DNA from: a virus
Length of the DNA: 21,113 nucleotides
Virus record (IMG/VR): IMGVR_UViG_3300028735_000041
Coordinates: 1-21,113 of that record
Strand: one strand, 5' to 3'
Below the pieces are notes generated by a model. That model made no database searches, was not told the DNA's origin, and saw only the letters and a list, made by a program, of their open reading frames with translations. Positions within the stretch are counted from its first letter, which is position 1. Every line of letters begins with the position of its first letter. The position numbers were made by a program, and so were the translations under genes. Shown in pieces: positions 1,262 through 19,392 of the stretch.

Positions 1262-1744
1262 ATGCGAATACTTGGGATTGATCCAGCGATCGCCAGTGTT
1301 GGTTATGGTCTGATAGAAATAGTAGGCAAAACCGCACATTTACATGAATTTGGGGTAATTAAGACAAGCAGCAAGGAATCAATTGGTAGCCGTCTAAGAA
1401 CAATATATATTGATTTACATAAAATCATCAAAGATTTGCGCCCAAATGCAATTGCGGTAGAAAAGTTGTTTTTTTATAGGATGAGTAACTTAATTGAGGT
1501 AGCCGAAGCGCGTGGGGTGATTTTATTAGTATTAAGCGAATGTGGGATAGAGCCGCAAGAGTATTCACCACCAGAGGTTAAGCAATGCTTAACAGGTCAT
1601 GGGAAAGCCGACAAGAAAGCGGTACAATTAGGAGTACAAAGAGAGTTAGGGCTAGACAAAATTCCGCAACCAGATGATGCGGCTGATGCACTAGCGATCG
1701 CTCTTACTTATTATTTTCGTCAGTTGGATAGGGTTGTAGCATGA
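1262..1744 (+). CDS. ruvC: RuvC-type Holliday junction resolvase
   Basis: A 160-residue protein of the RuvC family, which cuts four-way DNA junctions symmetrically in the cytoplasm; E. coli RuvC has 173 residues. The catalytic acids are in the expected places: D7 in GIDPA, E67 in AVEKLFF, D139 in PDDAADALA and D142. The segment GHGKADKKAVQ before the last acids matches the usual G-N/H-G-x-ADK block. A phage copy would resolve replication or recombination intermediates before packaging. The start overlaps no upstream gene; a TGTGCTATTGT promoter element lies about 40 nt upstream. Its stop overlaps the next start as ATGA, so the two are translationally coupled. The surrounding phage and methyltransferase genes argue for a phage-borne rather than housekeeping copy, though that is inference. 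Confidence 0.9.
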   Translation: MRILGIDPAIASVGYGLIEIVGKTAHLHEFGVIKTSSKESIGSRLRTIYIDLHKIIKDLRPNAIAVEKLFFYRMSNLIEVAEARGVILLVLSECGIEPQEYSPPEVKQCLTGHGKADKKAVQLGVQRELGLDKIPQPDDAADALAIALTYYFRQLDRVVA

Positions 1745-2091
1745 GTTCAAATACTGAGGGCATAGAAGTAGTAAATGTTCGGGGTTTAGACCCGCAAACT
1801 AATGGTGCAGGAATTGTGTATGTAGGTCGGCGTTGCGGAAAGTGGCAAAATTCTATTTTAGGGAATCCGTTTAAGATTGGCGTTCACGGCACTAGGGAAG
1901 AAGTGATAGACAAGTATCGAGACTGGTTAAAGAATAAGCTAGAGACAGACCAGTGTGTACAGTCCTTCATTATGGATTTAGTTAAGCGTTTTCATAATGG
2001 GGAGCGACTTCGGTTAGGATGCTGGTGTGCGCCCTTATCATGCCATGCTGAAGTGATTAAAGAGGTGGTAGAGGACACCTATAATTTTTGA
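1741..2091 (+). CDS. DUF4326 domain protein
   Basis: A 116-residue protein with the hallmarks of DUF4326: VVNVRG at residues 10-15, YVGR followed by SILGNPFKIG in the first half, a KYRDWL helix, and the closing L-x-CWCAPLSCHAEVI with paired cysteines and a histidine. The biochemical role of the family is not established to my knowledge; it is frequent in phages and mobile elements. The CWC...CH arrangement suggests metal binding, which is inference. It overlaps ruvC by 4 nt and is followed by 102 bp before the methyltransferase frames. Its length is typical of a single-domain member, and I see no truncation. Confidence 0.88.
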   Translation: MSSNTEGIEVVNVRGLDPQTNGAGIVYVGRRCGKWQNSILGNPFKIGVHGTREEVIDKYRDWLKNKLETDQCVQSFIMDLVKRFHNGERLRLGCWCAPLSCHAEVIKEVVEDTYNF

Positions 2092-2193
2092 GAAAGTATC
2101 CAGACAGCTTTCGTGGGAGATTACCACTTGGGCGATCGCATACCACGCCAAAGGGCTAGTGCCACCCATAACTATTGTTGAGAGATATACGCA

Positions 2194-2730
2194 ATGACTT
2201 ATGAGCCAACCAGTAAACTGCACAGAGCAAGAACTATGCACCTATTTAGCGGCATTGGAGGAGGGATACTTGGCGACCTCCTGTTTGGACACCATCCCGT
2301 GTGTGCAGTCGAGATTGATCCCTATTGCCAGCAAGTCTTATCAGCACGGCAAAAAGACGGTATCCTTCCATGGTTTCCCATCTTTGACGATGTGCAAGCC
2401 TTTGACGGCACAAGATGGAGAGGACTTGTTGACATCGTATGCGGTGGCTTTCCTTGTCAAGACATCAGTGCCGCAGGGCAAGGCAAAGGCATCACAGGAG
2501 AAAAGTCTAGTCTCTGGAAACACATGGCGAGAATTATCGGTGAAGTACGACCGCAGTACGCATGGGTGGAAAACTCACCAATGCTTGTGGGAAGAGGACT
2601 TGATACCGTCCTTGCTGACCTTGCCGAAGTGGGGTATGATGCAAAATGGGGTATTGTGGGAGCGCACCACGCCGCTGCCCTCCACAAACGAGACCGAATC
2701 TGGATTTTGGCGTACTCCACAAAGCTGTAA
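2194..2730 (+). CDS. Cytosine-C5 DNA methyltransferase, catalytic half (frame A)
   Basis: A 178-residue protein carrying the catalytic part of a Dcm-type cytosine-C5 methyltransferase. Motif I is HLFSGIGGG (16-24), motif IV is GGFPCQDIS with catalytic C88, motif VI is ENSP (126-129), and motif VIII is RDRIWILA (166-173). It stops directly after motif VIII, without the target recognition domain or motifs IX-X, so alone it would be an incomplete enzyme. The missing parts are present in the +1 frame, in the product of 2201-3421, which overlaps nearly all of this gene. M.AquI (from a cyanobacterium) and M.EcoHK31I are known C5 enzymes built from two polypeptides encoded by overlapping genes, so a two-subunit enzyme is plausible. 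Another option is a +1 frameshift near the CTG-TAA-C at 2725-2731. The start could also be the internal ATG at residue 15. Confidence 0.82.
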   Translation: MTYEPTSKLHRARTMHLFSGIGGGILGDLLFGHHPVCAVEIDPYCQQVLSARQKDGILPWFPIFDDVQAFDGTRWRGLVDIVCGGFPCQDISAAGQGKGITGEKSSLWKHMARIIGEVRPQYAWVENSPMLVGRGLDTVLADLAEVGYDAKWGIVGAHHAAALHKRDRIWILAYSTKL

Positions 2731-3421
2731 CGGCAAGCAAGGCGCAAAATCGGATGAATTTTATGATGAATGCTTAAAAACAGGGCGATCGCAGATTACG
2801 CTAACCGATCAAGTGAAGATGTTTCCGACACCAATGTCATCTGATTTTCAGCCGGGTAGCAAGAATAAACGATATAACCTTAAGGGATTGGGATGGATAG
2901 CACAGCATGATGCTACATTCGCTAGCAAATTTCCTACACCGCAAGCAAGAGATTGGAAGGGAGCTTCAGGACGCAGTCAAAAAGGAAAGGAATTAGACCT
3001 GCCAGCATTCTGCCAGCAATTCCCGACACCAAACGCCAGCGACTACATCCAGCGCAAAACATCTAAATCGTGGGCGGAGCAAGGACGAACCAACTATGTA
3101 CTATCTAATCCCGAAGTAACTGGCATTACGGGTGGACAGCTAAATCCTGACTGGGTAGAGCTACTGATGGGCTATCCACTTGGCTGGACAAAACTCGACC
3201 CATTACCGATCACCGAGTTTAATCTATGGTATGAAGGCAACACCGCCGAAGACAATGATCGCTATGGTGCAGAGGCATGGCAATCTGGAACATGGGAGCA
3301 GGGTGTAACTCGCACTGTAGGTAAAGGTTTTCCGCATCGCAGGGAGCGATTACAGGCGATCGGCAACGGACAAGTACCGCAAGCATTGAGGATAGCATGG
3401 TCAATCCTGATAATGGACTAA
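2201..3421 (+). CDS. Overprinted C5 methyltransferase partner: specificity region and motif X (frame B)
   Basis: A 406-residue frame, +1 relative to frame A. Residues 1-176 lie over frame A. The part after that has its own DNA and contains repeated F-PTP-x4-D blocks (at 208, 244 and 274), LNPDWVELLMGYPLGW (314-329), and the typical C-terminal C5 methyltransferase block FPHRRERLQAIGNGQVP (377-393), which is motif X. The overlapping half is not random: W-K-T-x-Q, WGMM-x-NG and the VKTS segment resemble a widespread phage protein family I recall as W-KTSQ...GMMRNGTAY. Those blocks are what the +1 frame of FPCQDIS and GYDAEW yields. I infer that B supplies the recognition domain to A in trans, or after frameshifting. 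The start ATG is only 7 nt after that of A. It overlaps the next gene by 25 nt. Confidence 0.8.
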   Translation: MSQPVNCTEQELCTYLAALEEGYLATSCLDTIPCVQSRLIPIASKSYQHGKKTVSFHGFPSLTMCKPLTAQDGEDLLTSYAVAFLVKTSVPQGKAKASQEKSLVSGNTWRELSVKYDRSTHGWKTHQCLWEEDLIPSLLTLPKWGMMQNGVLWERTTPLPSTNETESGFWRTPQSCNGKQGAKSDEFYDECLKTGRSQITLTDQVKMFPTPMSSDFQPGSKNKRYNLKGLGWIAQHDATFASKFPTPQARDWKGASGRSQKGKELDLPAFCQQFPTPNASDYIQRKTSKSWAEQGRTNYVLSNPEVTGITGGQLNPDWVELLMGYPLGWTKLDPLPITEFNLWYEGNTAEDNDRYGAEAWQSGTWEQGVTRTVGKGFPHRRERLQAIGNGQVPQALRIAWSILIMD

Positions 3422-4368
3422 CCTTAACTTGTGCCAGTATTTTTACAGGCGGAGCGATCGCTGATATAGGCTACGAAATGGCAGGATTCAAGCATATTTG
3501 GGGTATAGAGTACGATGCAGACATAGCCGCCGTAGCCAATGCCAACGGCTACTTCACCTACTGCCAAGATGCAATTACCGCAGACTGGACGGCGTTGCCC
3601 AGCCCTACCTTGCTCCATGCCTCGCCACCGTGTCAGGACTTTTCTATTGCAAAACGCAAAGATCAGGAGATCAGCCGTCCAAATCAAGCAATGAGCCAAG
3701 CGGTCGGTAGAGCGATCGCCGCACTGAAGCCTGAATTTGTAGTAATAGAGAATGTGCCAGCTTACCGCAAATCAAATGAGTGGTACAGTTTGGAACAAAC
3801 GCTATACCAGCAAGGATATTTTATAGTAAGTGCCCTGCTCAATGCCTACGACTATGGCGTACCACAATCTCGCATTAGATTTATAGTGATCGCCAGCAGG
3901 GTATCAATGCCACGCCTACCGCAGACTGTAAAAAAAGAGCAAAAGCGATCGTGGGATATGGTACTACTGGACAAGTTAGATAGCATGATAGATCGTCCAG
4001 TGCAAGACTGCATCTTAAAAAGGCTTGCATATCACGATATTTATCTAGGTAATGAACCGATCCTGATTGACAGCGATACTGGACTGTCATGGAATTTTAT
4101 ACAAAACGGTAGAGTGCAAACCCATCGCAGAATGGGTGAACCTGCATTTTGCATAAAAGCTTGTATTGGTCGTAATAATCGCAAGTACGCCATGCACATC
4201 GCCACCACTAGCTACGCAAAAACCATGACACCGCACCAACTTAAACTATTGCAAACAATTCCAGAAGACTATCAATTTCCATGCAAGTCAAACATTGCTT
4301 ATCGCATCATTGGTAATGCCGTACCCTGCCTGCTTACCAAAGCGATAGGAGAAGCAATTGCGCATTGA
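3397..4368 (+). CDS. Cytosine-C5 DNA methyltransferase, complete
   Basis: A 323-residue single-chain C5 methyltransferase. Motif I is SIFTGGAIADIGYEMAGF near residue 14; motif IV is ASPPCQDFS with the catalytic Cys; motif VI is IENVP; motif VIII is GVPQSRIRFIVIA; and motif X is YRIIGNAVPCLL near the C-terminus. It would methylate cytosine within a specific DNA site; the site cannot be read from sequence. The ATG at 3397 is preceded by GAGGA at 3388-3392 with 4-nt spacing, and the gene starts inside the last 25 nt of frame B, so the three methyltransferase frames are probably co-expressed. The related fragment at 1141 shares its first motif. PPCQ and IENVP differ from FPCQ and VENSP in the split enzyme, so the two systems are not recent duplicates. 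A protective role against host restriction is a reasonable inference. Confidence 0.93.
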   Translation: MVNPDNGLTLTCASIFTGGAIADIGYEMAGFKHIWGIEYDADIAAVANANGYFTYCQDAITADWTALPSPTLLHASPPCQDFSIAKRKDQEISRPNQAMSQAVGRAIAALKPEFVVIENVPAYRKSNEWYSLEQTLYQQGYFIVSALLNAYDYGVPQSRIRFIVIASRVSMPRLPQTVKKEQKRSWDMVLLDKLDSMIDRPVQDCILKRLAYHDIYLGNEPILIDSDTGLSWNFIQNGRVQTHRRMGEPAFCIKACIGRNNRKYAMHIATTSYAKTMTPHQLKLLQTIPEDYQFPCKSNIAYRIIGNAVPCLLTKAIGEAIAH

Positions 4369-15186: not shown

Positions 15187-15197
15187 ATTCTAGCACA
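15187..15197 (-). promoter_or_regulatory. Extended -10 promoter TGTGCTAGAAT overlapping a stop codon
   Basis: The minus strand reads TGTGCTAGAAT. Its TGC-TAG is also the last codon and stop of adenine methyltransferase 1 (stop at 15190-15192). The predicted transcript would begin near 15180 with a leader of about 20 nt, nearly all of it the U-rich segment GUUUUUUGUUGUU. Confidence 0.55.
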
Positions 15198-16245
15198 TAT
15201 TGGCAGTGGATAATAAATCTAACTGTTGCACAGCTATAGGTTGTAGGCAATGTGGGCTAAACCAGACTACCTCCCGTTCTTTGTTGACCCGCCCTCGCTT
15301 TTGTCCTTGATTACCAAACCCACCATTGGCAGACCAATAATAAGGTGTCCAACCCAAAGACTCCAATTCGTCGTAGTAGCCTGTATAACCGCATAAGGCG
15401 ATGCGGAAACGGTCATCCTTGCCTGTTTCCTTGCACCAATTTAAGACCTCAACATAAATGCTAGTGTTATCGTGAGCATAGACCGAATCCCGATCGCCAC
15501 CGTAAGGCGGATCAAGGAACACACCTACAGGAATGCCAGAGTGGATAGTACAGCAAGGAGTTAGGCATCGCTTCCAATCGCCGCAGACAATCTTGCAGAC
15601 ATTGCCTCTTAACCTACTGCTCAATTTGTCAAAATATATAGCTAAATCTGTGTTAACGCCTAAAATTCCCTTGGTCTGGCTTCCTATTTGTGGTCTTTGT
15701 TTATCAACACCTAAAACACCCTTAGTATGCCGTCCTATTATAGGCATCTGTCTGCTGACACCCACATCATTTTTGTTGCTTTTCTTTGTTAGCTTACCAT
15801 TCTGCATAATCCATCCTCCTTGACCTCTACACCATCCACTACCTATCCAGTTGTTAATCCCCCATACCCACCAGCCCGCAATTTTGGCAGAATAGTATTC
15901 AGGGTCAGACTCTAACCTCTGGACTAATCCCTCTTTCTGATTTACTAGCCAGATATGTCTAGCTGTTAAATCTACTTCGGTAATATGCCAATCTGCATAA
16001 TGCGCTACAGCAGAAGGATCATGGCAAACAGCTCTTAGAAAATTGACAATCATGCCATCAATATCGTTTAGCAATTCCCATCGCCTTTTCCCTTCTATAA
16101 AATGTTCTGACGGTCTAAGCCAAAACACTGCTCCACCGCCAAAAAACGGCTCTACATAAGCCTTAACATTGCCCAGTCGCTCCCAGACTACGGAAGCAAT
16201 GCTACGCTTGCCGCCAAAATAAATATAAGGAAGAGGATCAATCAT
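15190..16245 (-). CDS. DNA adenine N6-methyltransferase, D12 class, copy 1
   Basis: A 351-residue Dam-like enzyme that would transfer methyl groups to adenine N6 in a short DNA site. The SAM-binding block is PYIYFGGKRS (7-16), motif I is VEPFFGGGAVFW (31-42), and the catalytic motif is DPPY (245-248). The WWVWGINNW and WIMQNG segments lie in the recognition region. Residues 161-194 are two 17-residue repeats (xx-MPIIGRHTKGVLGVDK type), against four in copy 2. Outside the repeats the two proteins are nearly identical, so they are recent paralogues in direct orientation. The gene has its own TGTGCTAGTAT promoter and a U-rich leader without a Shine-Dalgarno site. It could protect phage DNA from restriction, and it may recognise GATC, but specificity is not deducible here. 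Confidence 0.93.
   Translation of the reverse strand: MIDPLPYIYFGGKRSIASVVWERLGNVKAYVEPFFGGGAVFWLRPSEHFIEGKRRWELLNDIDGMIVNFLRAVCHDPSAVAHYADWHITEVDLTARHIWLVNQKEGLVQRLESDPEYYSAKIAGWWVWGINNWIGSGWCRGQGGWIMQNGKLTKKSNKNDVGVSRQMPIIGRHTKGVLGVDKQRPQIGSQTKGILGVNTDLAIYFDKLSSRLRGNVCKIVCGDWKRCLTPCCTIHSGIPVGVFLDPPYGGDRDSVYAHDNTSIYVEVLNWCKETGKDDRFRIALCGYTGYYDELESLGWTPYYWSANGGFGNQGQKRGRVNKEREVVWFSPHCLQPIAVQQLDLLSTANMC
15664..15765 (-). repeat. Two 51-bp repeats (17 residues each) in methyltransferase copy 1
   Basis: It encodes residues 161-177 and 178-194, each with P at position 8 and ending HT/QT-x-G-V/I followed by LGV. The same position in copy 2 holds four units. Confidence 0.85.
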
Positions 16246-16290: not shown

Positions 16291-17469
16291 CTAGCGAATA
16301 GATTCAAGATATTTTAGACCGGTAGGGACATCCCAGAAGACCAAAATGCGATCGCACACTGGAGTATATGGATTGATAACAGTAAGGCAAGCAGAGCCGT
16401 GTCGATGCTCATAGAATCCTTTTTCTTCAGCAAAATCATCCATTCTTTTATAGCCTCGTACACGGATCGCCCAGCGTGGCTTACCATCTTCTGTTTCAAT
16501 GTGCATCATGCCCCATTGATGCGTATGTCCTGATATATGCAAATCCGCCCAGCGATCGCCAAAAATATGCGCTTTTAATGCGCCATGAGTGCTATGGTAC
16601 ATAGAACGACCCTTATGGTCATGTCTAGCGCAAATGTTTACTATAGCACCATTATCAAATCTGAGGGACAGCCTGCATTCATGACCAACAGTTGCCCACA
16701 CTCTAGTTTGGCGCAGGAGCAGTTTAAGGATATAAGAGCCTTGATTCCATGAATCGTGATTACCGATTACAAAATACGCCCACTCCATACTTTTACACAG
16801 CCATTCCGCCAGAGCGATCGCATCATCAAGAGTGCTAGATTGTTTAGCATATAGTTTTTCCAGTCGTCCGACCCAATTATTAGTAGTATCGCCAATATTG
16901 CCAGCATAAACACCCTTTGCGCGGCTACACAAAGTAATATGCTTCCTAAGCAAGGGCAAATCGCATCCATCATCGTCGAGGTGCGGGTCGCCCAAATGCA
17001 AAATGGCGACAGGTTTTGCACCTGCCGCCACTGTCTTGACTTTATTATCTTGAAATTGCTTTAACTTCCTTTGGTAAACTAAGCATCGGTGGTCTAAAAG
17101 TTCATCAAGAGAATAGTATGTGCCACCTGTATTTTCCCTGCGCTCACCATTTGGATCATAGTTGCTATAATTGTTGCTATAATTTTCGGCGATCATGATA
17201 CCAGAGGAGGCATTTTCCACCTTCCTTAACTTGTCATCAATTTCAGGCTTAGTATTTTGCGCCATTTTTCGTACTGCACATGAATCGTTGCTATGCTCTA
17301 TACCTGATTGATCTGATCGTTTTTTGCGTGAAATGTCATCATATATTTTAATAAACTCCTTGTTGCGACGAATCACCTCTCCACTCATATTGCAAAATGA
17401 TGCAAGTCTTTTTGCCGTCCGCCTTCGGCTACTTTCCCAGCATTGTTCTATCTGCTCATAGGTAAACAT
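16291..17469 (-). CDS. Calcineurin-like metallophosphoesterase
   Basis: A 392-residue protein with a C-terminal metallophosphoesterase domain that hydrolyses phosphate esters at a two-metal centre. The ordered motifs are LHLGDPHLDDDG (D161, H163), GNIGDTTNNW (D194), VIGNHDSW (N237, H238, D239), ARHDHKG (H283), and SGHTHQWG (H315, H317). All expected metal ligands are present. The N-terminal 45 residues (YEQIEQCWESSRRRTAKRLASFCNMS) could form a helix-turn-helix DNA-binding unit. Residues 50-120 look like a variable, low-complexity linker. Relatives occur in phages, often near packaging or replication genes, with uncertain substrates. The gene sits between the two methyltransferase copies and would be lost if they recombined. 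An AT-rich, TATAGT-containing stretch upstream (about 17500) may be its promoter. Confidence 0.88.
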   Translation of the reverse strand: MFTYEQIEQCWESSRRRTAKRLASFCNMSGEVIRRNKEFIKIYDDISRKKRSDQSGIEHSNDSCAVRKMAQNTKPEIDDKLRKVENASSGIMIAENYSNNYSNYDPNGERRENTGGTYYSLDELLDHRCLVYQRKLKQFQDNKVKTVAAGAKPVAILHLGDPHLDDDGCDLPLLRKHITLCSRAKGVYAGNIGDTTNNWVGRLEKLYAKQSSTLDDAIALAEWLCKSMEWAYFVIGNHDSWNQGSYILKLLLRQTRVWATVGHECRLSLRFDNGAIVNICARHDHKGRSMYHSTHGALKAHIFGDRWADLHISGHTHQWGMMHIETEDGKPRWAIRVRGYKRMDDFAEEKGFYEHRHGSACLTVINPYTPVCDRILVFWDVPTGLKYLESIR

Positions 17470-17540: not shown

Positions 17541-18692
17541 CTAATCTACTGATAACAAATCTAACTGTTGCATGGAGACAGGTTGTAGGCAATGCGGGCT
17601 AAACCAGACTACCTCCCGTTCTTTGTTGACTCGTCCTCGCTTTTGTCCTTGATTACCATAACCACCGCTGGTAGACCAATAATAAGGTGTCCAACCCAAA
17701 GACTCCAATTCGTCGTAGTAGCCTGTATAACCGCATAAGGCGATGCGAAACTGGTCATCCTTGCCTTTTTCCTTGCACCAATTTAAGACCTCAAAACAGA
17801 CGCTTGTGTCGTCATGTGCGTACACATCCTTACGGCGATCGCCACCGTAAGGCGGATCAAGGAACACACCTACAGGAATGCCAGAGTGGATAGTACAGCA
17901 AGGAGTTAGGCATCGCTTCCAATCGCCGCAGACAATCTTGCAGACATTGCCTCTTAACCTACTGCTCAATTTGTCAAAATATACGGCTAAATCTGTACTA
18001 ACGCCTAACATTCCTTGGGTATGGCTTCCTGCGTGTGGTATTTGTTTATTTATGCCTAATATTCCACTGGTTTTTGCTGCTATTGTTGGAATTTTTTTAT
18101 CAACACCTAAAATACCCCTAGTATGGCTTCCTATTTGTGGTCTTTTTTTATCAACACCTAAAACACTATTAGTATGGCTTTCCATTACAGGCATCTGCAA
18201 AGCAATACCCAAATCATTTTTGTTGCTTTTCTTTGTTAGCTTACCATTCTGCATAATCCATCCTCCTTGACCACTACACCATCCATTACCAATCCAGTTG
18301 TTAATCCCCCATACCCACCAACCCGCAATTTTGGCAGAATAGTATTCAGGGTCAGACTCTAATTTTTGCACTAATCCCTCTTTCTGATTTACCAACCATA
18401 TATGCCTTGCTGTTAAATCTACTTCGGTAATATGCCAATCTGCATAATGCGCTACAGCAGAAGGATCATGATAAACAGCTCTTAGAAAATTAACAATCAT
18501 GCCGTCAATATCATTCAGCAATTCCCATCGCCTTTCCCCTTCTATAAAATGTTCTGACGGTCTAAGCCAAAACACTGCTCCACCGCCAAAAAACGGCTCT
18601 ACATAAGCCTTAACATTGCCCAGTCGCTCCCAGACTACGGAAGCAATGCTACGCTTGCCGCCAAAATAAATATAAGGAAGAGGATCAATCAT
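17541..18692 (-). CDS. DNA adenine N6-methyltransferase, D12 class, copy 2
   Basis: A 383-residue paralogue of the enzyme at 15190-16245, with the same PYIYFGGKRS, VEPFFGGGAVFW and DPPY (279-282) motifs. The frame begins 2 codons earlier, but AAGGA lies 6 nt before the ATG at 18692, which also aligns with the start of copy 1, so I use that. The key difference is the recognition region: residues 161-228 hold four 17-residue repeats, whereas copy 1 has two, accounting for the size difference. Copy 2 overlaps the end of the gpF-like gene by 8 nt and has a good ribosome site, whereas copy 1 has its own promoter and no such site, so the two copies are expressed differently. Different repeat numbers might alter target recognition, which is an inference. 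Confidence 0.93.
   Translation of the reverse strand: MIDPLPYIYFGGKRSIASVVWERLGNVKAYVEPFFGGGAVFWLRPSEHFIEGERRWELLNDIDGMIVNFLRAVYHDPSAVAHYADWHITEVDLTARHIWLVNQKEGLVQKLESDPEYYSAKIAGWWVWGINNWIGNGWCSGQGGWIMQNGKLTKKSNKNDLGIALQMPVMESHTNSVLGVDKKRPQIGSHTRGILGVDKKIPTIAAKTSGILGINKQIPHAGSHTQGMLGVSTDLAVYFDKLSSRLRGNVCKIVCGDWKRCLTPCCTIHSGIPVGVFLDPPYGGDRRKDVYAHDDTSVCFEVLNWCKEKGKDDQFRIALCGYTGYYDELESLGWTPYYWSTSGGYGNQGQKRGRVNKEREVVWFSPHCLQPVSMQQLDLLSVD
18009..18212 (-). repeat. Four 51-bp repeats (17 residues each) in methyltransferase copy 2
   Basis: Units encode residues 161-177, 178-194, 195-211 and 212-228. The consensus is LG-V/I-D/N-K-K/Q-x-P-x-x-G-SHT-x-G-I. They are diverged from one another, so the array is not a very recent slippage product. 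Confidence 0.88.
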
Positions 18693-19392
18693 CTGCATTC
18701 CTTTCCCTAATCCTTTGCTCTACCTGCTCTCTTAAACTAGGAGATAATTTTGGCAGTGCTTCACGCATTAGCTCTTTAGCATCTATAGGCGATCGCCGAA
18801 ACTGCCTGTCCCATATCGTATCGGGATTTGGCGGATTGGTAATTATTTCAATATTTTGTTTTTTAGCGCGTTCTTTTCTTAATGCAAATACAGTACAGCG
18901 ACAGCCAAAACCGCATGGTGGCAAGCCGTACTTCCAGAAGGTATGGTCTGCTGGTATAGCCTTATTGTGCAATTGCTTATGCAATATTCTAAAGTTTGGC
19001 GAATCTCTGTGCCGCCATACCAGTACCCAATCGCTTTTGTTGTCGCCGATTAGCCTGTCAATCTCCTTTTGTCTGCCGTAGCGGTACGCCTGAGAAATAT
19101 TAGTTTGGTAGATTATTCTTCTGCGATTGCCATTAGCAGACCAGCCCATTCGTTCTACTAAACGGTCAAATTGTTTGTTGAAAGTGCCCAAATTGCCGCC
19201 TCTTTGCAGGCTATCAGTCAACAAAAATTTGATGGCATCTAGTATTTCGGCACTATTTAGATTGGCGACTGTAAACGCCCAATCGTGAAAGTAATTCGTT
19301 AAGCTCCTTAGCTCTTCCGCTGGTATTGACACCTTGTTCGCTAAATACTTTAACGCCCGCTTTGGTGGCAGACGCAACCATGATTCAACCAT
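18685..19392 (-). CDS. Phage head morphogenesis protein, Mu gpF-like
   Basis: A 235-residue member of the Mu gpF / SPP1 gp7-type head morphogenesis family, a minor head protein that works with the portal in early capsid assembly. The N-terminal LPPKRALKYLANKVSIPAEELRS followed by HDWAFTVANLNSAEIL is the usual front of Mu-type members. The core has RIIYQTNISQAYRYGRQ (92-108), WRHRDSPNFRILHKQLH (126-142) and FWKYGLPPCGFGCRCTV (152-168), with Cys160, Cys164 and Cys166. The TTG at 19398 is possible, but the ATG at 19392 with GGAG 9 nt upstream is preferred. It lies after a zinc-ribbon gene and overlaps the adenine methyltransferase. The portal gene that normally precedes it is absent from the window. 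Confidence 0.87.
   Translation of the reverse strand: MVESWLRLPPKRALKYLANKVSIPAEELRSLTNYFHDWAFTVANLNSAEILDAIKFLLTDSLQRGGNLGTFNKQFDRLVERMGWSANGNRRRIIYQTNISQAYRYGRQKEIDRLIGDNKSDWVLVWRHRDSPNFRILHKQLHNKAIPADHTFWKYGLPPCGFGCRCTVFALRKERAKKQNIEIITNPPNPDTIWDRQFRRSPIDAKELMREALPKLSPSLREQVEQRIRERNADD

Follow-up and report, generated by a model that had tools for sequence, protein, structure and literature searches.

The 21.1-kb virus record IMGVR_UViG_3300028735_000041 of IMG/VR (positions 1 to 21,113; hereafter the window) contains two plus-strand reading frames, A (2194-2730, 178 aa) and B (2201-3421, 406 aa, in the +1 frame), that carry complementary halves of one C5 cytosine DNA methyltransferase, and the 530 nt they share (2201-2730) are coding in both frames. 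Across hundreds of phage genes both frames are open, conserved and under selection, each motif can be assigned to its frame, and motif X has moved between frames repeatedly. We consider it very probable, from the sequence evidence laid out below, that A and B are the two subunits of a single C5 methyltransferase in which A catalyses and B recognises. What we infer from these patterns is the production of both proteins, their assembly into a heterodimer, the control of specificity by B and the role of its overprinted N-terminus.

Motif content of the two frames and genomic context

Frame A matches PF00145 (E 6.8e-30) over profile positions 2-163 of 324 and aligns to M.HhaI residues 10-172, corresponding to motifs I-VIII without the recognition domain. 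Motif I (FSGIGG, 2245-2262), motif IV (GFPCQDI..., 2446-2466, with the catalytic PC dipeptide and the catalytic cysteine codon at 2455-2457), motif VI (ENSP, 2569-2580) and motif VIII (HKRDRIW, 2683-2703) are all read in this frame, which stops 5 codons past the motif VIII region. Everything that A lacks is found in frame B, namely the recognition region with its RTP/PTP blocks (2711-3130, where relatives show a B-frame coding pattern), motif IX (GQLNPDWVELLMGYPLGW, 3134-3187), which is nearly invariant across 69 B proteins, and motif X (IGNGQVP, 3359-3379), which a motif scan places in frame A in most relatives. A TGA overlapping the start codon of A (aTGA), just 5' of the ATG of B, opens frame B. 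An earlier sequence-only reading had described the two frames, at the coordinates given here, as complementary halves of one methyltransferase, with A ending before the recognition domain, and the profile and M.HhaI alignments bear this out.

Searches of Pfam (including PF00145) with B gave no match, as was also the case for 69 family members, and none was found in the PDB. B does match phrog_1008, annotated 'DNA methyltransferase', over the overlap as well as the C-terminal part (E 2e-27 for the whole protein and 5e-9 for the overlapped part alone), and the same family is matched by all 22 overlap segments tested and by single-chain enzymes such as gp64 of mycobacteriophage DotProduct; its name is silent on being the second frame of a catalytic gene. 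A profile search with the overlap segment returned forward-strand matches that are, in 250 of 250 cases, the +1 frame of a catalytic domain. The idea that the B N-terminus also exists in free-standing copies was therefore rejected, and phrog_1008, the phage protein family that the sequence-only reading had in mind, is not an independent source of this domain. AlphaFold modelled B alone with a mean pLDDT of 53.7 and with motif IX as the sole confident part, a poor model that fits, without proving, a protein that folds only together with A.

A second, ordinary single-chain C5 methyltransferase follows at 3397-4368 on the plus strand (PF00145 over the full profile, 1.2e-41); its first 25 nt are also the last 25 nt of B, and it is a neighbour outside the A/B pair, for which a pattern scan of IMG/VR found no relatives. 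Directly upstream of the pair lie a RuvC-like resolvase (1262-1744, plus strand) and a DUF4326 protein (1741-2091, plus strand) with overlapping start and stop. On the minus strand, two near-identical D12-class adenine methyltransferases (15190-16245 and 17541-18698) flank a single gene (16291-17469) and differ mainly in the count of central ~20-residue repeat units (GVLGVDKxxPxIGSHTxG), a pattern suggestive of a recognition part that varies through its repeats. With these, the virus has two C5 and two N6 methyltransferases in 21 kb. The window also holds Mu-type structural genes (Phage_Mu_F, virion morphogenesis) and 22 copies of GCGATCGC against 0.18 expected, an excess that we take to be a cyanobacterial signature.

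Selection on both frames of the overlap

A, B and the overlap segment each served as a query for homologues in IMG/VR, annotated phages, plasmids and GTDB genomes, and stops in the +1 frame of the catalytic region (159 codons) were counted in 96 non-redundant homologues against a null in which synonymous codons were shuffled within each gene. Only 10 stops were observed where 248 were expected, and the +1 frame was stop-free in 91 of the 96 homologues against 5.4 expected, whereas the +2 frame contained 742 stops and was open in none of them. Among 43 ungapped homologues found with A alone, and hence not selected for B, there were 0 stops in the +1 frame against ~118 expected, with every 20-codon bin stop-free. 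Unrelated ORFs of similar GC and PF00145 matches in cellular genomes served as controls: 2 of 331 such ORFs were open, with 5.9 stops observed and 6.1 expected, and the methyltransferase at 3397-4368 has 14 stops in that frame against 13.1 expected. The overlapped half of B is thus not arbitrary, as the sequence-only reading had held.

Some similarity in frame B does arise from A, as invariant A residues force some B residues and identity in the +2 frame also exceeds the null (z 12), owing to relatedness. Extended to the whole overlap, this effect would make the similarity of frame B a by-product of a conserved A protein and codon bias, a reading whose probability we regard as negligible. BLOSUM conservation beyond the synonymous-shuffle null is stronger in the +1 frame (z 24) than in the +2 frame (z 11), these z-scores not being probabilities, as the homologues share ancestry, with disjoint pairs, the +2 frame and unrelated ORFs as counter-controls. 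Furthermore, stops are avoided in the +1 frame only, the synonymous constraint is position-specific, and frame B is selected where A is absent or free. Within the overprinted block LPKWGMMQNG (2621-2650), the B proline and the B glycine are each fixed in 43 of 43 homologues through synonymous choice in A (null identities of 0.22 and 0.37, respectively), and the tryptophan at column 110, in the block YDRSTHGWKTHQC (W-K-T-x-Q, 2546-2584), shows an identity of 0.74 against a null of 0.25. In all, synonymous codon choice in A preserves a P, a W and two G residues of B.

Substitutions were compared in 64 disjoint pairs of relatives, 76-96% identical, as rates per site at positions 1/2/3 of the A codons. 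The rates were 0.124/0.058/0.225 in the catalytic region and 0.055/0.061/0.124 around motif X (mostly in A), compared with 0.302/0.105/0.065 in the recognition region and 0.142/0.031/0.026 at motif IX. The coding frame is therefore A in the catalytic region and at motif X, and B in the recognition region and at motif IX; beyond the overlap, the recognition region and motif IX are constrained in B only. Inside the overlap, the bin 360-420, which holds the LPKWGMMQNG block, has a B-dominant pattern.

The fourfold-synonymous rate of A in close pairs was 0.24, 0.21, 0.41, 0.12 and 0.22 in bins at profile positions 0-35, 35-65, 65-105, 105-145 and 145-178. The trough of 0.12 coincides with the YD..T..W-K-T-x-Q and LPxWGMMxxG blocks of B, and both blocks are therefore selected in B, in agreement with the earlier proposal. 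The third block named there, VKTS, lies in the least constrained stretch (0.41) and is mostly a by-product, or shadow, of the FPCQDIS of A. Over the first 65 codons, where fourfold rates are halved, B changed more conservatively than expected by chance under all transition biases tried, with stops excluded (z 3.5-5.0 at fourfold sites). Selection at the protein level acts on B residues ~1-75 and ~113-153. Purifying selection is present in both frames over the same DNA, and the synonymous-site comparison that the sequence-only reading had proposed for 2201-2730 yields the selection on B that it predicted: stop avoidance, residue conservation, codon-position pattern and reduced A-synonymous change all support a conserved overprinted frame fused to a specificity half.

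Architecture, starts and exceptions across the family

Scanning of 365 catalytic matches placed motif IX in B and motif X in A in 182, both in B in 30, and motif IX in A in 8, the remainder being incompletely resolved by the motif patterns; overall, motif IX is in frame B in more than 240. The layout of the window, with IX and X in B, is shared by 15 other non-redundant contigs and makes up 16 of 91 classified rows. Mapped on a 91-member tree of catalytic domains, the location of motif X requires 13 changes, of which well-supported branches force 11, so that motif X switched frame about 11-13 times; exchange of C-terminal halves by recombination may explain some of these switches. The same relation between the A and B frames occurs in Pseudomonas, spirochaete, Alicyclobacillus, Paenibacillus, Lihuaxuella and other genomes. 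A third arrangement, with motif IX in frame A, is seen in a few loci (L155, L211 and L319 on one contig, L213, and L321 and L323); at L155 the PTP blocks stay in B and neither frame has motif X. A single indel in the recognition region would leave this arrangement.

In loci with motif X in B, the distance from motif VIII to the end of frame A ranges from 4 to 180 codons, and the stop contexts are unrelated. In the window and a few relatives, A ends 4-7 codons past motif VIII, where the recognition region of B begins, and an A-to-B fusion peptide would place motifs I-X in order; programmed ribosomal frameshifting from A into B could thus yield the whole methyltransferase as a single chain, and the upstream stretch of frame B would not be a protein in its own right. 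This we consider very unlikely. The scatter of A ends and the unrelated sequence at the stops argue against it, and no conserved shift site was found at the end of frame A, stop positions and contexts differing among the 15 members with the window layout, the window included. Two shifts would be needed in the common layout, which has motif X in A, and frameshifting leaves unexplained the stop avoidance and protein-level conservation of B from the start of A as well as the conserved second start codon. The scattered ends are what the two-subunit reading would lead one to expect: A reads through the recognition region only as a way to motif X and is released from doing so once X lies in B.

Single-chain forms were found in three distant relatives, a Pelosinus bin (L254), an Actinomycetota bin (L262) and mycobacteriophage DotProduct gp64 (L008). 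Each unites the catalytic domain of the family with PTP blocks, IX and X in a polypeptide read from a single frame; in contrast to the window, the recognition half is not overprinted on the catalytic half. Such forms favour the view that the window holds a degenerate or mis-sequenced gene, an ordinary methyltransferase split by one indel, and a continuous close relative had been named in advance as what would overturn the two-frame interpretation. The search for one returned only these distant exceptions. As the layout of the window recurs in the 15 other non-redundant contigs and the single chains are distant, the window is not a sequencing slip; with the split present in hundreds of loci from independent assemblies and purifying selection in both frames, the indel explanation is extremely improbable for the window and refuted for the family.

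Each single-chain form has features of its own. At L254 (3640-4896), frame A reads motifs I-VIII and then PTP blocks, IX and a motif X, and the +1 frame retains a relic of the B N-terminus as far as SSITLTDQV; it looks as though a single change of frame had fused the two genes. DotProduct gp64 (1621-3612) carries a ~180-codon same-frame insertion between motifs VI and VIII of the catalytic domain, possibly a homing-endonuclease or intein-like element, and a short B-like frame begins past the insertion. At L262 (2156-4327), a segment past motif VIII (RFDEKTLSWRS...VPWPRSGFVRTG) faintly resembles the overprinted B blocks W-KT and PxxGxxxxG; if real, this resemblance would mean that the same segment exists outside an overlap, and at 9.4 bits it was set aside as too weak. 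Adjacent stops in both frames (V*IGL in A, FE*DLQ in B) identify the locus in the E. coli PCP07014 prophage (L396, 601-1362) as a true pseudogene of an A/B pair; both frames are intact in E. coli PT62 (L397).

The first ATG of frame B lies exactly at +4 from the A start in 45 of 96 genes (ATGAATGAG, ATG-AATG), often behind a Shine-Dalgarno-like sequence, and between -20 and +40 in 74 of 96. Compared with the 406 aa of the window, B is about 230-350 aa long in typical relatives. In Gram-positive relatives the split is present and the upstream B frame is not fully open, with 5 stops observed against 6.1 expected at L366 and 2 against 5.4 at L367. As the split does not depend there on a fully open upstream frame, the long B seems to have grown by extension from a shorter form with an internal start, and the N-terminal segment is not essential to the split principle. 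The same Gram-positive stops, together with the freely evolving VKTS stretch, are also compatible with B starting internally near the GMM block, as a short chain like the M.EcoHK31I beta subunit, with the upstream frame merely held free of stops, for example for translational coupling, and not a functional protein part. We judge this improbable, in view of the constraint on codons 0-65 described above and the clustering of first B-frame ATGs at the start of A.

Relation to known two-polypeptide enzymes and proposed mechanism

C5 methyltransferases made of two polypeptides have been known since the 1990s. M.EcoHK31I recognises YGGCCR and has a beta chain of 176 aa, a small subunit that the gene for the large one encodes in an alternative frame; M.AquI, of cyanobacterial source, recognises CYCGRG and has subunit genes with a short overlap. 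According to PMC3404938, M.EcoHK31I has catalytic motifs I-VIII and X in one polypeptide and motif IX in the second, and the first polypeptide of M.AquI has motifs I-VIII and the second the recognition region, IX and X, the large subunit also carrying part of the variable region. Compared by motif layout, most relatives of the window split as M.EcoHK31I does: motif IX is in a second polypeptide read in another frame of the same DNA in the window and in more than 240 scanned loci, and motif X is in A in most relatives (182). The window, with motif X in B rather than in its catalytic polypeptide, has the layout of M.AquI by motifs. Both enzymes had been cited as precedents by the sequence-only reading, and the arrangement in the window is indeed of their kind in the terms of PMC3404938, so that the class is not new.

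The differences concern extent. B is far longer than the beta subunit of M.EcoHK31I, begins at the start of A and overprints nearly the whole catalytic gene; the alpha subunit of M.AquI holds part of the recognition region and A holds none, and the short overlap of M.AquI compares with 530 nt here, together with a conserved overprinted B N-terminus. The pair in the window is an extreme variant, widespread and mostly unannotated, of an already known class of enzymes encoded in overlapping frames. As far as we have found, what goes beyond the precedents is that B reaches back to the start of A itself and that its N-terminus is overprinted on the catalytic domain. The open-access literature yielded no description of overlapping or overprinted phage methyltransferases, and none of a whole-domain overprint from the start of A, of the conserved N-terminal blocks, of the phage-wide extent or of the repeated change of frame of motif X, and the sequence-only reading likewise knew of no description of the overprinted domain. 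M.BatI (PMC8936443) is an unrelated short single-chain enzyme.

In the simplest mechanism, a single transcript with two starts 4-7 nt apart would give rise to a heterodimer. The neighbouring starts (2194 and 2201 in the window, 4 nt apart in about half of relatives) would be served by one ribosome-binding region, and both frames would be translated. A, with motifs I-VIII, would bind S-adenosylmethionine and bear the catalytic cysteine, and B would bring the recognition region with its PTP blocks, motif IX and, here, motif X, joining A to complete the fold. In terms of an M.HhaI-type fold, A would correspond to the large domain, and the small recognition domain, motif IX and, here, the motif X helix that packs on the large domain would come from B. 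The first ~150 residues of B are overprinted on the catalytic domain of A, and the selected residues ~1-75 and ~113-153 probably serve as the surface for assembly and as the beginning of the recognition domain. We tentatively go further, in a proposal that we hold to be plausible if somewhat short of probable: the N-terminal ~150 residues of B may be a domain born in the second frame with a job of its own, either clamping A or reading DNA by W-KT and PxWGMMxxG hairpins, and the phage family may be a natural frame-swapping system in which motif X moves by single indels, linking the M.EcoHK31I and M.AquI designs.

Genes that overlap at length on the same strand are a rarity in bacteria and phages; their existence is debated, and annotation regularly passes them over. 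In the records inspected, from phages, plasmids and E. coli, one frame is annotated, or a truncated partner (L009); the annotated frame is, for example, A in Acinetobacter ABMM1, and B, as a 'hypothetical protein', in Vibrio 1.236.O and Pseudomonas phPA-G. The present overlap is found in hundreds of phage and bacterial loci, spans up to a whole gene and bears signatures of selection in both frames, making it a natural test bed for two constrained proteins on one DNA sequence. Orphan phage methyltransferases usually serve to shield phage DNA from host restriction. Our results suggest that the methylomes of phages with such genes are mis-predicted because half of the enzyme is missing from protein databases, and they would tie two odd enzymes of the 1990s, M.EcoHK31I and M.AquI, into one evolutionary series.
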